Part shown: positions 238 to 37,628 of the stretch, piece by piece
How positions within the stretch are numbered: position 1 is the stretch's first letter
How the letters are laid out: each line of letters begins with the position of its first letter
Source of the DNA: a bacterium
GTDB lineage: Bacteria > SAR324 > XYD2-FULL-50-16
NCBI GenBank assembly: GCA_024275165.1
Contig: JAJRZQ010000029.1
Span: forward strand, 1 to 64,000
Length of the DNA: 64,000 nt
Direction of reading: 5' to 3'
The notes under the pieces: generated by a model
The model's database searches: none
What the model was told of the DNA's origin: nothing
The model's input: the letters and a program-made list of their open reading frames with translations, nothing else
Translations under genes and position numbers: made by a program

Positions 238-312
238 TGGCTGGGCCGCCTGGGTTCGAACCAGGGAATGTCGGTACCAAAAACCGATGCCTTACCACTT
301 GGCTACGGCCCA
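238..312 (-). tRNA. tRNA-Gln (anticodon UUG)
   Basis: The minus strand gives a cloverleaf with acceptor stem TGGGCCG/CGGCCCA and a T-arm containing GGTTCGAACC. The anticodon stem TCGGT/ACCGA encloses the loop TTTTGGT, so the anticodon is UUG. U1 and discriminator G are typical of tRNA-Gln, and CCA is encoded at 238-240. It precedes tRNA-Gly by 65 nt on the same strand. Confidence 0.96.
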
Positions 313-3108: not shown

Positions 3109-3125
3109 TTGGCCTTTTTATTGCA
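3109..3125 (+). promoter_or_regulatory. Sigma-54-type promoter of glnN
   Basis: TTGGCCTTTTTATTGCA has the invariant GG (3111-3112) and GC (3123-3124) exactly 10 bp apart and matches the TTGGC...TTGCA consensus for RpoN promoters. Transcription would start near 3136, leaving a leader of about 80 nt. Sigma-54 control of a glutamine synthetase fits NtrC-type nitrogen regulation. No matching enhancer site was recognised. Confidence 0.7.
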
Positions 3126-3218: not shown

Positions 3219-5399
3219 ATGACCACGACTAGGCAAATCGTAGCAAGAAATATCGCGCACCGCGGGGATGCGCAAGACTATACTCCGAATAAAACAACAA
3301 AGATTACGGATATCTACGGGATGCATGTCTTCAACGATTCCGTAATGAAGGCGCACCTTCCGAAAAACATTTACAAAAACCTAAAAGAAACCATCGAGCG
3401 CAACCAAGCCCTCGACCCCAGCATCGCCGATATCGTTGCCGCGGCCATGAAAGATTGGGCGATTGAATTGGGCGCGACTCACTATACACATTGGTTTCAA
3501 CCTCTAACCGGCGCCACGGCGGAAAAACACGACTCCTTTTTGACGCCGCAAAATGACGGCAGCGCCATCATGCGCTTTAGCGGCACTGAGCTGACCCAAG
3601 GCGAACCGGATGCCTCAAGTTTTCCCTCCGGTGGCATCCGGGCCACTTTCGAGGCTCGGGGTTATACGGCTTGGGACCCTTCCAGCTCCGCTTTTGTGCG
3701 CTTGAACGATCAAGGCGGGACTCTGTTTGTCCCCACCGCGTTTTGTTCCTACACGGGCGAGGCCTTGGACAAAAAAACTCCCGTACTCCGCAGTCAAGAG
3801 GCTTTATCCAACGCCGGGGTTCGCCTGCTCCGGGCCTTAGGGAATACAGAGGTCAGCTTGATCAACTCCACCGTGGGTTTAGAGCAAGAATACTTTCTCA
3901 TTGACGCGGAATTTTTCAACGCCCGCCCCGACCTGGTCGCCACGGGGCGCACTCTGTACGGCGCGGCTCCCTACAAGGGCCAGAGCCTGGACGATCATTA
4001 TTTTGGTTCCATCAAGGCTAGGGTGTTGAGCTTTATGCAAGATACCGAGCAGGCTTTGCACAAGTTAGGGGTTCCCGTTAAGACGCGCCACAATGAGGTG
4101 GCGCCGGGACAATATGAAGTGGCGCCGATTTTTGAGCGCTCCAATGTGGCGATTGATCACAATATGCTGGTCATGGAGGTCATGAAAAGCATTGCTGAAA
4201 AGCATAAATTCAGGATGTTGCTCCATGAAAAGCCCTTTGCCGGGTTAAACGGCAGCGGGAAGCATTGCAACTGGTCGATGGCCGACAATTTAGGCAACAA
4301 CCTTTTAGAGCCCGGTCATACCCCGCATGAAAACATGCAGTTTTTGGTCATTTTAACCGCGATTTTGCGGGGGATTGATCAATACGCTTCGCTGCTTCGT
4401 CTCACCGTTGCTCACGCCGGCAATGATCACCGCTTAGGGGCAAACGAGGCCCCTCCCGCTATTATCTCCGCGTTTTTAGGGGATGAACTGGGTTCCATCG
4501 TAGAGGACTTAGCCCAGGGCTCGGCTACCAGCAGCAGCAGCAAGAGCAAGATTGATTTGGGTTCGTTGGTTTTGCCCGACCTCCCCAAAGACACCACGGA
4601 TCGAAACCGCACCAGTCCCTTTGCCTTTACGGGAAACAAGTTTGAGTTCCGCGCCCTTGGCGCCTCTCAGCATGTTGGTGGCCCCGTGTTCTTTTTAAAC
4701 ACGATTGTTGCCGATTCCTTTGATTATATGGCAGAGGAAATCAACGCCAAGATGAAAAAAGGGGTGAGCATCGCCGTGGCTGCCGATGAAGTCGTCAAGG
4801 GAACCTTGAAAAAACATATCCGCGTGGTGTTTAATGGAGACGGCTACTCCGAGGCGTGGCATAAGGAAGCCGCCAAGCGGGGCTTGCCCAATTTGCCCGG
4901 CACCCCCGAGGCGACGCAAGAGATGCTGAGCCCAGAGGCCGGGAGGCTCTTTGAAAAATATAAGGTTTTGAGTAGGGGAGAGTTGGAAGCAAGGTATAAC
5001 ATCAAGCTGGAAAACTACATCAAAACCTTGGAGATTGAATTCAATGCGGCACAAGATATTGCCCGTACGCTGATTTTGCCCGCTGCCTTAGAATACCAAA
5101 GCCAGTTGGCGGGTTCTGTTGCCGCGGCCAAGGCATGCGGGGTCGGGGGGGATCGGCAAGCTAAGCTGTTAACCGACCTCAGCAACAATATCGAAAAGCT
5201 GCTCGCTGCCTTGGAACAGTTTGAAGCGGGGTTGGAGCAAATCCCTCAAGGAGAAGATTTCGAACATGCCGACTACTGCCGTGAAAAACTCATCCCCTTG
5301 ATGAGCGAGTTGCGCGAAGTGGCCGACAGCTTAGAGACTCAGGTGGATGATCGCCTGTGGCCCCTACCGAAGTATCGCGAAATGTTGTTCCTTTCCTAA
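3219..5399 (+). CDS. glnN: Glutamine synthetase type III
   Basis: ATP-dependent condensation of ammonium with glutamate to glutamine, in the cytoplasm. The protein has 726 residues, the large size typical of GSIII rather than the roughly 450-470 residues of GSI. It starts with the GSIII N-terminal region. Motifs include [10 protein letters not shown] (acid catalytic site), [29 protein letters not shown] and [17 protein letters not shown] (nucleotide/glutamate binding). A long helical C-terminal extension holds [12 protein letters not shown]. The ATG at 3219 is preceded by AAGGAAAG. It sits 46 nt upstream of glnB and downstream of a sigma-54-type promoter, consistent with nitrogen-limited expression. 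Confidence 0.96.
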
Positions 5400-5433: not shown

Positions 5434-5784
<351 letters not shown>

Positions 5785-5819
5785 ATGAAGATGCCGGCTT
5801 TCGCAAAGTCCGCATTGGA

Positions 5820-5860
5820 CCTCTAAACCCCTTGAGGGCTTGTTGGGGTGAGGTTTTTTT
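5820..5860 (+). terminator. Intrinsic terminator after glnB
   Basis: ACCCC (5827-5831) pairs with GGGGT (5845-5849), and CCTC (5820-5823) pairs with GAGG (5850-5853) across a small TAA bulge. Seven T residues follow at once (5854-5860). It would end the glnN-glnB transcript and separate it from amtB. Confidence 0.75.
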
Positions 5861-5872
5861 AAGCTTTAGAGC

Positions 5873-5890
5873 TTGGGAGTCAATCTGCAA
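5873..5890 (+). promoter_or_regulatory. Sigma-54-type promoter of amtB leader
   Basis: TTGGGAGTCAATCTGCAA has GG (5875-5876) and GC (5887-5888) separated by exactly 10 bp, the invariant spacing of RpoN promoters. It lies just after the glnB terminator, and the predicted start is near 5900. The -24 element diverges from the GGCAC consensus after GG, so it is weaker than the glnN site. The position before an ammonium transporter gene supports it. Confidence 0.55.
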
Positions 5891-5925
5891 CCTTAAAGTA
5901 AATCAACTCACTGTATACTTGATTT

Positions 5926-5979
5926 AGCGGGTTCTTCTCGACCCGCTAGGAGTCTCTGCACACTCAGAGGCTCTTTTTT
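5926..5979 (+). promoter_or_regulatory. Tandem-hairpin leader with terminator before amtB
   Basis: Hairpin 1 is a perfect 7-bp stem, AGCGGGT (5926-5932) with ACCCGCT (5941-5947). Hairpin 2 pairs GAGTCTCTG (5950-5958) with CAGAGGCTC (5965-5973), with one G-U pair, and is followed by six T residues (5974-5979). It ends 21 nt before the amtB start, leaving no room for another promoter. Expression of amtB must therefore read through, as in an attenuator, or the unit is a nitrogen-controlled small RNA with read-through. Confidence 0.65.
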
Positions 5980-6000
5980 AACTTAAAGAAAATTAAAAAA

Positions 6001-7302
6001 ATGAATACCCTGCGAAATTTTCTGCCTGGGGCTCTGGCGGCCTCTGCCTTGTTTTTTCCCTTGAACCTCTTTGCCCAAACCCAAGAGATTCAGGCCGGTG
6101 ATACGGCCTGGATGTTGGTCTCTACCGCCATGGTCATGCTGATGATCCCCGGGTTGGCGCTGTTTTACGGGGGAATGGTGCGTAGTCGCAATGTCTTGAG
6201 CGCCATGATGCATTCCTTCTTCGCTTTGGGCCTTGTCACCCTGCAATGGGTGGTGATCGGTTATAGCTTAAGCTGGGGGACGGATCACGGGGGCTTTATC
6301 GGGGGCTTGAACTACGCCTTTTTGCAAGGGGTTGGCTTGGAGGCCAATGGAACCATCCCTCATGTACTCTTTATGGCTTTTCAGGGGATGTTCGCGATCA
6401 TCACCCCGGCGATTATCTTAGGGGCCGCGGTGGAGCGGATCAAGTTTTCGACCTATGCCGTTTTTATCTTTTTATGGAGTACCTTAGTCTACGACCCCTT
6501 GTGCCACATGGTCTGGCATCCCGATGGCTTTTTGCTCAATCGTGGCGGCCTTGATTTTGCAGGGGGCACGGTGGTGCATATTTCCAGTGGGGTGAGCGCC
6601 TTGGTACTCGCTTGGGTTTTAGGCCGTCGCAAGGGCTACGGCAAACTGCCCATGCCCCCTCACAATTTGGTTTTAACCCTTTTAGGGGCGGGGCTTTTAT
6701 GGTTTGGCTGGTTTGGCTTTAACGCGGGTTCCGCCTTAAGCGCCGGAGCCTTGGCCGCCAATGCCCTGGCCGTGACACATATCTCCGCGGCTATGGGCCT
6801 GATCGCTTGGGTGGGCTTGGAATGGATTCTTTTAAAGAAACCCAGCGCGCTGGGTGCCGCTTCGGGGTTGGTGGCCGGCCTGGTGGCTATCACCCCCGGG
6901 GCTGGTTTTGTGTCGGTTGGGGCCTCGATTTGGATCGGCTTGATCGGAGGGGCGGTTTGTTTTTATGGGATTCGGATCAAAAGCCGCATGGGGCTGGATG
7001 ATAGCCTGGATGCCTTTGGGGTGCATGGCATTGGCGGGATCACCGGGGCGTTGCTCACCGGGGTATTTGCCTCTGTGGCCATCAACCCCGCTGGGGCTGA
7101 TGGGGTTTTATTCGGGGCCGAGGGTTGGCACCTGTTGTTGGAGCAGGCTATTGCGGTTGCCTTTACGGTCGTTTATTCCGGAGGGATCACCTACTTTTTG
7201 GTCGTGCTTTTGGATAAAATCATGGGAATACGCGTTCCCGAAGAAACGGAACTGGCCGGCTTGGACTCCACCCTGCATGGGGAGCAAGCCTACCAAAATT
7301 AG
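6001..7302 (+). CDS. amtB: Ammonium transporter
   Basis: An inner-membrane Amt/Rh channel of 433 residues. A cleavable-type signal peptide (LPGALAASALFFPLNLFAQ) is followed by about 11 membrane segments. Family signatures include DTAWMLVSTAMVMLMIPGLALFYGGMV and the pore His regions GGTVVHISSG and FGVHGIGGITGALLTG. The short cytosolic tail (PEETELAGLDSTLHGEQAY) resembles the GlnK-interacting end of AmtB. Start ATG 6001 follows an A-rich, weak ribosome-binding stretch and lies directly after an intrinsic terminator, so leader control is likely. PII is encoded immediately upstream, as in most bacteria. Confidence 0.96.
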   Translation: MNTLRNFLPGALAASALFFPLNLFAQTQEIQAGDTAWMLVSTAMVMLMIPGLALFYGGMVRSRNVLSAMMHSFFALGLVTLQWVVIGYSLSWGTDHGGFIGGLNYAFLQGVGLEANGTIPHVLFMAFQGMFAIITPAIILGAAVERIKFSTYAVFIFLWSTLVYDPLCHMVWHPDGFLLNRGGLDFAGGTVVHISSGVSALVLAWVLGRRKGYGKLPMPPHNLVLTLLGAGLLWFGWFGFNAGSALSAGALAANALAVTHISAAMGLIAWVGLEWILLKKPSALGAASGLVAGLVAITPGAGFVSVGASIWIGLIGGAVCFYGIRIKSRMGLDDSLDAFGVHGIGGITGALLTGVFASVAINPAGADGVLFGAEGWHLLLEQAIAVAFTVVYSGGITYFLVVLLDKIMGIRVPEETELAGLDSTLHGEQAYQN

Positions 7303-33574: not shown

Positions 33575-36301
33575 ATGAATAGAGCGCGGCAAGGCTTCAA
33601 CAGGCGAGCCCTGGGTTTGGTTGGGATCATGGTCTTGGTGACCTTGATCACCAATTTTATAGCGATTTATATTCATTTTAACGCGGTGCTGGAGGGGCAG
33701 CAGACCCGTTTGCGCGAATGGGCGCAAATGCAAGCTTATCTACTGGAAGCCCGGATTGGGCTCCAGCAGGCCAACCGTAAATTATCTCCTTTTTTGTTCA
33801 GCTTTGCCCAGGCCCAGGAATCCCTTGCCTCGGTTTCAGGCCACGGTAAATCCCCTACCTTGATTCTAGCCCAAAAAGAGGGTGATTCGATTCGTTATCT
33901 CGTAATCAGCCCATCCCCTGCAAAAGCAGAGACTCGCTCCCTCCCCTGGCAGAGTGAGTTTGCTCTTCCTTTGCGCTTGGCCCTGCAAGCAAAGAGCGGA
34001 GTCGTGCGGTCGATCAATGTAAAGCGTCAGTCTGTTCTGGCCGCTTATGAACCCATTCAGGCGCTTGAGGTCGGACTGGTGGCGCAAATTGAGCTGCGAG
34101 AGATATACCGCCCCTTGATCGGCTATGCTTTGAAGCTGATCGCGGTCAGTTTGTTTTTTATTTTACTCGGTGCCCGTTTTTGTTTTGTTTGGTTTAATCC
34201 TGTACTCCATGCCCTTGCCCAAGAGGTGAAAGATAGCAAAGACAAGGAAGAAACCTCGATATTTCAAGAGAAAAAACTTTCTCGCGTCTTGACCTTGGCC
34301 AACATGGGCAGTTGGGAGTGGAGGCGGGAAGATTCCTTTTTCAGTTTTTCCAAAGAGTTGCAAGAACTTTTAGGGTTAACGGTGCAAGAGCGACAATCTC
34401 CCTATGAAGCTTTTTTGGCTTGCATTCATCCAGAAGATCGCGATCAATTTCAGTTTGCCTTAGACCAAGCGATGAGTAATGGGATGAATTTTTCTCTCGA
34501 TCATCGAGTGGTGACCGCTTTTGGGAAAGCTTTATATGTTCATTCAACGGGGGAAGTGGTTTGGGACGCAGAGGGGGTGCCGAGTAAAATGCTCGGGATC
34601 ATGCAAGATATTACCGAATCCAAATCCGCGACCCAGCGCATTCAACTTTTGGCCACGGTTTTTGAAAACGCCCAGGAGGGGGTGGTAATCACGGACCATC
34701 AAAACCACATTATCGAGGTGAACCCAAGTTTTGAAAAGATCACCGGTTTTACCTTTGCCGAAGTCAAAGGGCACAATCCCAAACGGTTGAGTTCGGGGCG
34801 TCATAAAAAACCCTTTTACCAAGCCATGTGGGCTAGCATTCAAGAAACCTCGACTTGGTCTGGTGAAGTTTGGGATCGGAAAAAGTCGGGGGATATTTAC
34901 CCTAAACATTTGAATATTACGGCCTTTAAAAATGAAATCTCAGGCAAAACCAATTATCTTGGGGTTTTTTCTGATATTTCACAACAAAAAGAAAACGAAG
35001 CCAAATTGGCCCAGATGGCTTATTATGACCCCTTGACCAACCTGCCCAATCGGAGCTTTTTCATTGCCGACATGATTCGGGAACTGCAATTAGCAGAACG
35101 AGCCCAAATCAGTTTGGCCGTACTCTTTTTAGATCTGGACCGGTTTAAGCATGTCAATGATTCCTTTGGGCATCAAGTGGGGGATCAATTATTGATTCAA
35201 GTAGCTGCAAGATTAAAAGAAGCCTTACGGGAGTCAGACCTGATCGCTCGATTAGGCGGTGATGAGTTCGTGGTTTGCTTGAGGAATATCGAAGACCCGG
35301 CTGACGCGGGTCAAGTGGCCCAAAATATCTTACAGGCCCTACACCGCTCTTTTAATTTAGAGGGGCATTTAGTGTATATCAATACCAGCATTGGGATCAG
35401 TCTTTACCCCCAAGATGGCTCTGAACCCGGTGTGTTGATTAAGAATGCCGATTCGGCCATGTATCTCTCGAAGGAAAAAGGGAAGGGGATTTTCAGCTTT
35501 TTTACCCAAGCCTTAAACGAAAAGGCCCAAAAGCGAATTTTTCTCGATTCCAGCCTCCATCAAGCTTTAGAGCAGGATCAGTTTTTTTTGCAATATCAAC
35601 CGCAGGTTGAAATCGCCACAGGTCAGATTGTCGGGTTAGAGGCTCTGATTCGTTGGCGGCATCCCACCCGTGGGTTGATCTCTCCCGTTGATTTTATTGC
35701 TCTTGCTGAAGAAACGGGGCTCATTGTCCCCATTGGGGATTGGGTATTGCAAGAGGCTTGCGCCAAGACTAAACAATGGCAAGACGCGGGTTTAAAGCCG
35801 GGAGTGATTTCGGTCAATGTTAGTCAAAAGCAATTTGCTCGGGGGGATATCTTACAGAGCGTTACTCGTACCTTAAAGCAAACGGGGCTTGATCCGAAGC
35901 AATTGAAATTGGAACTGACCGAGAGCCTTTTCATCAAGGGTACGAACCATGCTATTGAAATTCTGCATCATATTCGCGACTTAGGGGTGGGTTTGAGTAT
36001 TGATGATTTTGGTACCGGTTTTTCCAGCCTTAGTTATTTGAAAAATATCCCCCTAACGGATTTAAAGGTAGATCAATCCTTTGTTAAAGGGCTTTTGCAA
36101 GATTCCCGCATCGCTGAGGCAATTATCTCCTTGGCGAAAAGTTTGCACCTTTCGATTATCGCTGAAGGGGCGGAGGAAAAGGCGCAGGTCGATTTTTTAA
36201 ATCAATTGGGCTGTCAAAGAATTCAAGGTTATTATTATTCCAAACCCCTGGAAGAAAAAGACCTGCTTCCCCTGCTGCGCCAAGGGAAAATTATGGTTTA
36301 G
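33575..36301 (+). CDS. PAS-PAS-GGDEF-EAL c-di-GMP enzyme
   Basis: 908 residues, membrane-anchored. TM1 (about 14-33) and TM2 (about 188-210) enclose a periplasmic domain. Two PAS domains (about 235-350 and 355-475) lead to a GGDEF domain with intact RLGGDEFVVCL and an I-site RESD five residues upstream, and then an EAL domain with EALIRW, NVSQKQF, LELTES, DDFGTGFSSL and LKVDQSFV. All catalytic motifs look complete, so both c-di-GMP synthesis and hydrolysis are possible. It follows the chemoreceptor by 6 nt. Sensing in the periplasm is inferred from the topology. Confidence 0.95.
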   Translation: MNRARQGFNRRALGLVGIMVLVTLITNFIAIYIHFNAVLEGQQTRLREWAQMQAYLLEARIGLQQANRKLSPFLFSFAQAQESLASVSGHGKSPTLILAQKEGDSIRYLVISPSPAKAETRSLPWQSEFALPLRLALQAKSGVVRSINVKRQSVLAAYEPIQALEVGLVAQIELREIYRPLIGYALKLIAVSLFFILLGARFCFVWFNPVLHALAQEVKDSKDKEETSIFQEKKLSRVLTLANMGSWEWRREDSFFSFSKELQELLGLTVQERQSPYEAFLACIHPEDRDQFQFALDQAMSNGMNFSLDHRVVTAFGKALYVHSTGEVVWDAEGVPSKMLGIMQDITESKSATQRIQLLATVFENAQEGVVITDHQNHIIEVNPSFEKITGFTFAEVKGHNPKRLSSGRHKKPFYQAMWASIQETSTWSGEVWDRKKSGDIYPKHLNITAFKNEISGKTNYLGVFSDISQQKENEAKLAQMAYYDPLTNLPNRSFFIADMIRELQLAERAQISLAVLFLDLDRFKHVNDSFGHQVGDQLLIQVAARLKEALRESDLIARLGGDEFVVCLRNIEDPADAGQVAQNILQALHRSFNLEGHLVYINTSIGISLYPQDGSEPGVLIKNADSAMYLSKEKGKGIFSFFTQALNEKAQKRIFLDSSLHQALEQDQFFLQYQPQVEIATGQIVGLEALIRWRHPTRGLISPVDFIALAEETGLIVPIGDWVLQEACAKTKQWQDAGLKPGVISVNVSQKQFARGDILQSVTRTLKQTGLDPKQLKLELTESLFIKGTNHAIEILHHIRDLGVGLSIDDFGTGFSSLSYLKNIPLTDLKVDQSFVKGLLQDSRIAEAIISLAKSLHLSIIAEGAEEKAQVDFLNQLGCQRIQGYYYSKPLEEKDLLPLLRQGKIMV

Positions 36302-36307
36302 GGACCC

Positions 36308-36513
36308 CTCTGAAAAACTCCTTGCCTACCGCTTGCTCAAGCGGTAGGTTCGTGCCCTTCGGGCTGAGGATAGCCCTTGGGGCGCGTCGAGTTTTTCGGT
36401 CTTTTCGGTGGGGAATAAAATCCATAACCTCAACGCGAATCAATAAGTTAAACTTTTTGTTTTGGCAAGGCGTCCCTGCCTTGCTGGGAAACTCCGCGTT
36501 TTTCAGAGTTTCC
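36308..36513. repeat. Nested inverted repeats between convergent genes
   Basis: The outer arms are CTCTGAAAAAC (36308-36318) and GTTTTTCAGAG (36498-36508), a perfect 11-bp inverted repeat 201 bp across. Inside are CCTACCGCTTG/CAAGCGGTAGG with a 2-nt centre (36325-36348), a small GCCC/GGGC hairpin, and GCAAGGC/GCCTTGC (about 36463-36484). At the right end GGAAACTC/GAGTTTCC (36487-36513) encloses the outer arm. The region lies between the 3' ends of two convergent genes. It may act as a bidirectional terminator, or be a small non-autonomous element. Confidence 0.7.
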
Positions 36514-36518
36514 TTAGA

Positions 36519-37628
36519 TTAATAAAAATAGAGCGCGAAACCAAAGCCTAGGGTGGAGTCCGCAAAGAGTTTGCTCTCGATGAGAGTCGGGTCGAGGGGG
36601 GTAGCGCTCTTTTCGAGCAAATAGGAAGTTTCCGCAAGCTTTAGGTTAAAGTCGAGGTTGCTGTCGTACATGATTCCAAAATTCAATTCGACGACACGCA
36701 CTTTACGGCGTGAAAGGTAATGGGCCGCTATGGCCTCTTGCAGCTCGGTTTTGACCCGTTTTTCTAAGCTGATTCCCCGTCCATCCCATTGCAGTCGGTA
36801 TCCATAGCGATAGCCTTGACTTTTTTCCATACTGTAAAAATTGGACTGGTCTGCCGCTAGGTTAAACTCTAACCCTCGCTGTTGGCGCTGCATGGAATAA
36901 AAGAAGCGGCTGCCGTTTTTTAAGCCATAGCCTAAGGTGCCTTGAGCTAAGTTCATTTTATAGTCTGCCGGGGCGGCCAAGCTGTCGCCTTCGATGCGGC
37001 TTTGTCCCACTTGCCGGAGCAGTAATTCGCTATACAAGCCTTCTCGGTTTAAGGGCCGCTGGTGAAAATGAACCCCCTTAAACTGGCCTTGCAACTCATA
37101 AGAGAGATTAAAGAGGCTTTGGCTTTGTTCAATCCGCCTTGTTTCTTTCATGGTCCCCTGAAATATCCCGATTTCCAGCCCTAAAGAGGGCCATAATAGG
37201 CCCGCGGATTGATTGCTCTCCATAAATTCGGAGTTGTCGTTGAAAAAATAAAAGGGGTTGAGAGCGGTTGAGGTCGGGATATTCAAATAAGTATTGCTTT
37301 TTTGCCCACTTTGGTCGCCGCGCAAGAAGAAATAACCCAAGGGCAACAGCAGGCTCGCTTGGCCAAGGGTATCATTGGCGCTGTACTTGTTTCCCGCTTG
37401 ATTGACTTCAAAGGCTTGGTTGTTATAACTCGCCGCGCCAGCTACAACAGCTTGAAATTTAAAGGCTCCCCCTCGGCTGAGGAGGTGATCCTTACGGGGG
37501 GTTTGCCCATCGGGATTGGTTTCTCTTAAGTTTTCCTGATAGTAGTATTCGAACTCCATTCCCGTTTCTGCAAACAGAGGAACGGAGAGAGCGAGTAAAA
37601 CACAAACAAGGAGAATCGCGCTTCTCAT
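36519..37628 (-). CDS. Predicted outer-membrane beta-barrel protein
   Basis: 369 residues with a signal peptide (MRSAILLVCVLLALSVPLFA). The remainder alternates hydrophobic and polar residues, is rich in Tyr, Phe, Gly and Asn, and ends in aromatic FALYFY, as outer-membrane barrels do. No family is recognised. Roughly 14-16 strands would fit this length, but I did not count them reliably. It is the convergent neighbour of the GGDEF-EAL gene. Confidence 0.72.
   Translation of the reverse strand: MRSAILLVCVLLALSVPLFAETGMEFEYYYQENLRETNPDGQTPRKDHLLSRGGAFKFQAVVAGAASYNNQAFEVNQAGNKYSANDTLGQASLLLPLGYFFLRGDQSGQKSNTYLNIPTSTALNPFYFFNDNSEFMESNQSAGLLWPSLGLEIGIFQGTMKETRRIEQSQSLFNLSYELQGQFKGVHFHQRPLNREGLYSELLLRQVGQSRIEGDSLAAPADYKMNLAQGTLGYGLKNGSRFFYSMQRQQRGLEFNLAADQSNFYSMEKSQGYRYGYRLQWDGRGISLEKRVKTELQEAIAAHYLSRRKVRVVELNFGIMYDSNLDFNLKLAETSYLLEKSATPLDPTLIESKLFADSTLGFGFALYFY

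Follow-up and report, generated by a model that had tools for sequence, protein, structure and literature searches.

Several families of bacterial MITEs have been reviewed (PMC10969869), including Correia in Neisseria, Chunjie in Geobacter uraniireducens (178-235 bp), and the QMITEs of Coxiella. As described there, they are short, non-coding sequences with terminal inverted repeats and short target duplications, and they occur in many, mainly intergenic copies that fold strongly and can sit between the genes of an operon. A 211-bp repeat in the genome studied here is the same in these respects, the likeness being one of description. SPRITE, BOX, and RUP of Streptococcus pneumoniae are the same by description in being dispersed and structured, and SPRITE has terminator-like hairpins (PMC10969869). 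Two features of the 211-bp element differ from the reviewed MITEs as they are described: compensatory changes maintain its fold in diverged copies, and what we read as one such copy bears a terminator in the leader of amtB, a role that the 2024 review calls only conceivable (PMC10969869). We hold, with a probability of about 0.75, that the amtB leader is a diverged mobile-element copy in the glnB-amtB spacer, most likely a passive terminator that uncouples amtB. This would make it a candidate for a MITE copy that serves as an intrinsic terminator before a core nitrogen gene and would mean that a riboswitch-like leader can derive from a repeated mobile element, which is relevant to the prediction of regulatory RNAs from single genomes.

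The other system to which the locus invites comparison is the ANTAR-controlled leader (EutV, NasR), since ANTAR-target dual hairpins are known 5' of ammonium transporters (PMC3369931). The amtB leader has the same hexaloop hairpin pair, with the second hairpin at the terminator, and the same position 5' of a nitrogen gene. Unlike the ANTAR leaders, however, its loops (CUUCUC and CACACU) do not carry A1/G4, its hairpin pair does not compete with the terminator, and this genome yielded no ANTAR protein. In Firmicutes (L039, L042, L062), strong terminators were seen whose ends lie 7-40 nt 5' of the amtB start, and these are candidate ANTAR-controlled leaders.

The window (the whole 64-kb stretch of DNA that was analysed) carries on its forward strand a gene for type III glutamine synthetase (GSIII; 3219-5399; Pfam GSIII_N, 7e-77, and Gln-synt_C-ter), followed by glnB, which encodes nitrogen regulatory protein P-II (5446-5784; Pfam P-II, 2e-33), and amtB, which encodes an ammonium transporter (6001-7302; Pfam Ammonium_transp, 1.5e-119). 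Two tRNA genes lie near the window start, at 100-172 and 241-312 (-). All other window features described below are on the + strand. A first intrinsic terminator stands 3' of glnB (5818-5862; -14.5 kcal/mol), its stem region at 5818-5855 followed by a T-run, and after it comes TTGGGAGTCAATCTGCA, the GG-N10-GC sequence ahead of amtB. Three hairpins then follow one another directly: hairpin A (AUCAA...UUGAU; 5901-5924), hairpin B (5925-5948), with a 9 bp stem and the 6-nt loop CUUCUC, and hairpin C (5949-5974), with a 10 bp stem and the 6-nt loop CACACU. Together with T6 at 5974-5979, hairpin C makes a second intrinsic terminator (5949-5979), and 21 nt separate the end of T6 from the amtB ATG at 6001.

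Reading and folding both bear out the hairpin pair and the intrinsic terminator that the initial annotation had described 21 nt 5' of the amtB ATG: the stretch 5915-5982 folds at -29.1 kcal/mol (z -6.3), with none of 200 shuffles equally good, and hairpins B and C folded singly have z values of about -4 each. The double hairpin and terminator ahead of amtB are therefore real. The same annotation had placed the hairpins about 50 nt past a predicted sigma-54 start (~5900), which holds for hairpin C (~49 nt on) but not for hairpin B (~25 nt on). It had also stated that no promoter lies between the terminator and the gene, and our scan agrees, having found no sigma-70-like site scoring 9/12 or above between the second terminator and the amtB ATG.

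A search of 52 genomes of the phylum with a covariance model (CM) built solely on the amtB double hairpin returned no convincing amtB leader elsewhere and a clear second copy in the source genome itself (C16, 33.6 bits), which goes against the leader as a feature shared with related genomes. A third copy of the double hairpin, in the window at 36460 (21.6 bits), is the 3' end of a 211-nt repeat whose intact copy at 36305-36513, recognized by BLAST, alignment, profile, and CM, defines the family. A BLAST search with 36300-36530 returned 118 candidates; of these, 40 were scored, and every one proved near full-length at ~89-92% identity. When 31 copies were aligned, the ends were sharp and bore an imperfect terminal inverted repeat (GGAACCTCTGAAAAAC / GGAAACTCTGAAAAAC), and the 4-bp target duplications (e.g., TTAA, TATA, TGAA, TTTA, TAAG, and CTAA) were identical in 17 of the 31, as compared to 3.5 expected and at most 9 in permutations. 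The element is 211 nt long and non-coding, its consensus folds at -103 kcal/mol, and, on a rough prediction of ORFs, 21 of 30 copies are clearly intergenic. The source genome holds at least 88 CM matches at E<=0.01, with 150 of 1539 candidates scored. Diverged, shortened, and solo-hairpin derivatives are also present; five loci with divergent interiors carry solo or shortened ends, and no transposase was recognized by eye at those loci. Given its dispersed copies, inverted ends, 4-bp duplications, lack of coding sequence, and mostly intergenic placement, the repeat is a MITE-like element. Because the CM search gave no matches in nine other family genomes, plasmid BLAST with the element gave none, and an exact scan of viral contigs gave none, it seems recent on this lineage. 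A phage BLAST with the glnB-amtB spacer had no match either, and a literature search by the terminal repeat sequence found nothing relevant. What is described here is a structured repeat family of a known kind, unmatched in Rfam and the other collections searched, and it is its placement at amtB that is of interest.

The membership of the amtB leader in this family was assessed with a CM built from the 3' 125 nt of 18 intact element copies, the amtB copy being excluded. This model aligns with 5853-5974 along its full 125 positions and scores 43.4 bits (E 7e-10; its E-values are rough, and the bit score is the safer measure), as compared to a highest chance score of 12.7 bits among 537 kb of other genomes. 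In a sequence-only profile from 30 copies the leader ranks second in the window (E 0.001), and the global alignment of 5817-5974 to the consensus scores 44.8 against a mean of -2.9 in 1000 shuffles (sd 8.3, max 30.4). Hairpin A is the equivalent of the element's helix 2, hairpin B of its helix 3 (with different stem letters, fully paired), and hairpin C of its 3'-terminal hairpin. It could be argued that the likeness is chance or a convergence of terminator hairpins, as hairpins resemble one another generally and overall identity to the consensus is low, the amtB copy lying far from it with a weakly similar 5' half. However, the CM match is collinear and full-length, the global alignment beats every shuffle, and leader and element have in common several blocks that do not belong to hairpins B or C (TTGGGA, AATC, CAACC, AATCAA, and TTGATTT); because these blocks occur together with three hairpins in the same order, convergence is very improbable. 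On these sequence comparisons, we count the homology of 5853-5974 as established and regard the amtB leader as a diverged copy of the dispersed element.

The copy appears to be internally shortened and to span 5817-5974, of which 5853-5974 is secure by CM and 5817-5852 tentative. The glnB terminator (5818-5862) and the element's 5' end are weakly similar (GGACCTCTAAACCCC and GGAACCTCTGAAAAACTCC, respectively), with a score of 31.8, which was equaled in 3 of 2000 shuffles and in 1 of 1542 window segments. The whole glnB-amtB spacer may consequently be one shortened element copy, its 5' part being the tentative portion. The copy is not flanked by a clean target duplication (CATT on one side, TTTT on the other), and the duplication at this site may have eroded.

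The fold of the element is conserved among its diverged copies. In 13 of these, including amtB, 84.4% of cells pair, as compared to at most 51% with slid partners, and in 24 pairs both partners have changed, as against 14.6 ± 2.0 in shuffles; fitting the alignment to the model biases it towards structure, but the margin is wide. The stems of hairpin B illustrate this, being GCAAGGCA/UGCCUUGC in the consensus, AGCGGGU/ACCCGCU at amtB, and GGCAACCC/GGGUUGCC in the second double-hairpin copy, C16, and fully paired in all three. The fold may be under selection for mobility or for a role as RNA, and the data fit either. That the amtB stems remain fully paired despite divergence could point to selection for a local function; other diverged copies also stay paired.

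Such a local function would be expected if the element copy had been domesticated as a regulated attenuator, with a protein or ligand setting read-through into amtB by nitrogen status. The strong terminator within the leader, the persistence of its pairing, the fitting function of amtB, the ANTAR-target hairpins known at ammonium transporters, and the terminators near the amtB ATG in some Firmicutes all speak for this possibility. Nevertheless, the evidence against it is considerable. The pairing probabilities of the terminator hairpin are about 1, the best terminator-free fold is ~11 kcal/mol worse, and the alternative antiterminator is weak, gaining ~2.4 kcal/mol before the terminator and lost after the terminator forms; this ~11 kcal/mol gap speaks against the mutually exclusive antiterminator that an intrinsic attenuator would need. 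A leader peptide is also lacking, as 5900-5985 contains no ATG or GTG ORF and only TTG-ATT-TAG. At curated and relaxed thresholds alike, Rfam gave chance-level matches (nqrA-II at 18.3 bits with a cut-off of 55, STnc410 at 18.4 bits with a cut-off of 50). The ANTAR domain was found in none of 49 genomes (the 98%-complete source genome and 48 relatives), although the same search recovered it in 6 of 6 other genomes used as a positive control, and we rejected ANTAR antitermination on this ground and on the absence of the A1/G4 pattern from the hexaloops. CAT_RBD and Hfq proteins were searched for in the genome and not found. The stems were not conserved at the orthologous leaders of the relatives, an outcome set in advance as a point of refutation, and this counts against a riboswitch or attenuator as well. 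The attenuation or riboswitch-like switch that the initial annotation had predicted for ammonium uptake accordingly found no support in a competing fold, a leader ORF, an Rfam match, family conservation, ANTAR, CAT_RBD, or Hfq, and we consider a domesticated attenuator unlikely.

The relatives are informative about what the spacer may have been. G002, G003, G004, and G006 retain the order GSIII-glnB-amtB, and G001 retains glnB-amtB; in these five the spacer before amtB is 24-77 nt (three) or about 195-275 nt (two). Neither a terminator ahead of amtB nor an equivalent of the leader was found in any of the five, where glnB adjoins amtB, and excising 5817-5974 from the present locus would leave a spacer of ~58 nt. 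We infer that a MITE-like element inserted between glnB and amtB and split an ancestral GSIII-glnB-amtB operon. The 3'-terminal hairpin of the element, lying beside a T-run, would supply the terminator ahead of amtB, and the glnB terminator probably owes part of its sequence to the element's 5' end. Passive, leaky termination would then uncouple amtB from glnB and lower its transcription, and amtB transcripts would arise by read-through or start at a weak promoter within the element, either the sigma-54-like site at 5874 or the TATACT at 5914.

A related reading is that the hairpins are a backup second terminator for glnB and that amtB is expressed solely by read-through from a sigma-54 promoter of GSIII. 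It is compatible with an element origin, and the tandem arrangement of terminators, the absence of a promoter past the second, and the operon order of the relatives, with a sigma-54-like site upstream, are as it would predict. However, two strong terminators in tandem would nearly silence amtB barring an intervening promoter, and weak candidates for one exist there, so we regard this reading as possible but somewhat doubtful. One of these candidates, CTTAAA-N16-TATACT (5892-5919), is a sigma-70-like site read by eye that scores 8/12, under the 9/12 threshold of the scan.

The other candidate is the GG-N10-GC sequence. TTGG-GAGTCAATC-TGCA occupies 5873-5889, with GG at 5875-5876, N10, and GC at 5887-5888, and predicts a +1 at ~5900; the sigma-54-like site itself (TGGGAGTCAATCTGCA, 5874-5889) lies within element-derived sequence. 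Against TGGCACG-N4-TTGCA it scores 12 of 15.5 by weights of our own, a medium match, and the window holds 32 sites scoring at least as well on both strands, itself included. The sigma-54-type promoter initially annotated after the glnB terminator is hence present as a GG-N10-GC sequence, but with a medium score and 32 comparable sites per 64 kb that sequence alone is weak evidence, and a sigma-54 site before amtB is plausible but weak. The -12 GC is missing from the element consensus, so the site, if it works, would have arisen in the amtB copy. A BLAST match to the sigma-54 region on contig 14 (E 0.007) was discarded, as it looked like chance and is probably antisense to a coding region.

It has also been suggested, with the original description of this leader, that a sigma-54-dependent small RNA (~5900-5979) is made here, with occasional read-through into amtB. 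The GG-N10-GC sequence and a compact predicted transcript of ~80 nt, structured and ending in a terminator, are consistent with this, as are the RpoN and sigma-54 activators that the genome encodes and the MITE-derived small RNAs reported in Coxiella (PMC10969869). The missing -12 GC in the element consensus, the medium match of the site, the failure to find Hfq, and the lack of conservation of the leader in the family argue against it, and we consider it distinctly improbable.

Sigma-54 control of the nitrogen genes GSIII-glnB-amtB as such is likely, because RpoN is present, together with several sigma-54 activators, and relatives in the family also have sigma-54-like sites ahead of the operon. 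A site 5' of GSIII (TGGCCTTTTTATTGCA, 3110-3125) scores above the one at amtB, and comparable sites stand ahead of GSIII or glnB in 4 of 5 relatives (GSIII in G003, G004, and G006; glnB in G001), with a further site before amtB in G007. Their recurrence suggests family-wide sigma-54 control of the gene row, as judged from site sequences. The distance recurs as well, with sigma-54-like sites ~75-110 nt 5' of GSIII (or glnB) at 3110-3125 and in L112, L114, L115, and L117.

A bolder proposal is that a structured mobile element specific to this lineage was turned into a set of RNA leaders and terminators, among which the amtB copy is under nitrogen control, and that its scattered copies make up a transposon-born RNA regulatory network. 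Were this true, the compensatory changes in diverged copies would reflect selection on RNA; we think it improbable. Solo 27-nt end hairpins (GGAAACTCTGAAAAACGCGGAGTTTCC) without the remaining element, REP-like in character, occur at L246 2931 (+) and L247 2719 (-). The palindrome CCTCTGNNNACTCAGAGG was seen exactly three times (L157 1501-1518 (-), L155 1501-1518 (-), and L156 1501-1518 (+)), with a count of 0 for a reversed-pattern control; the amtB copy differs from it by one mismatch, and these palindromes may represent a sub-family of the terminal hairpin of the element.
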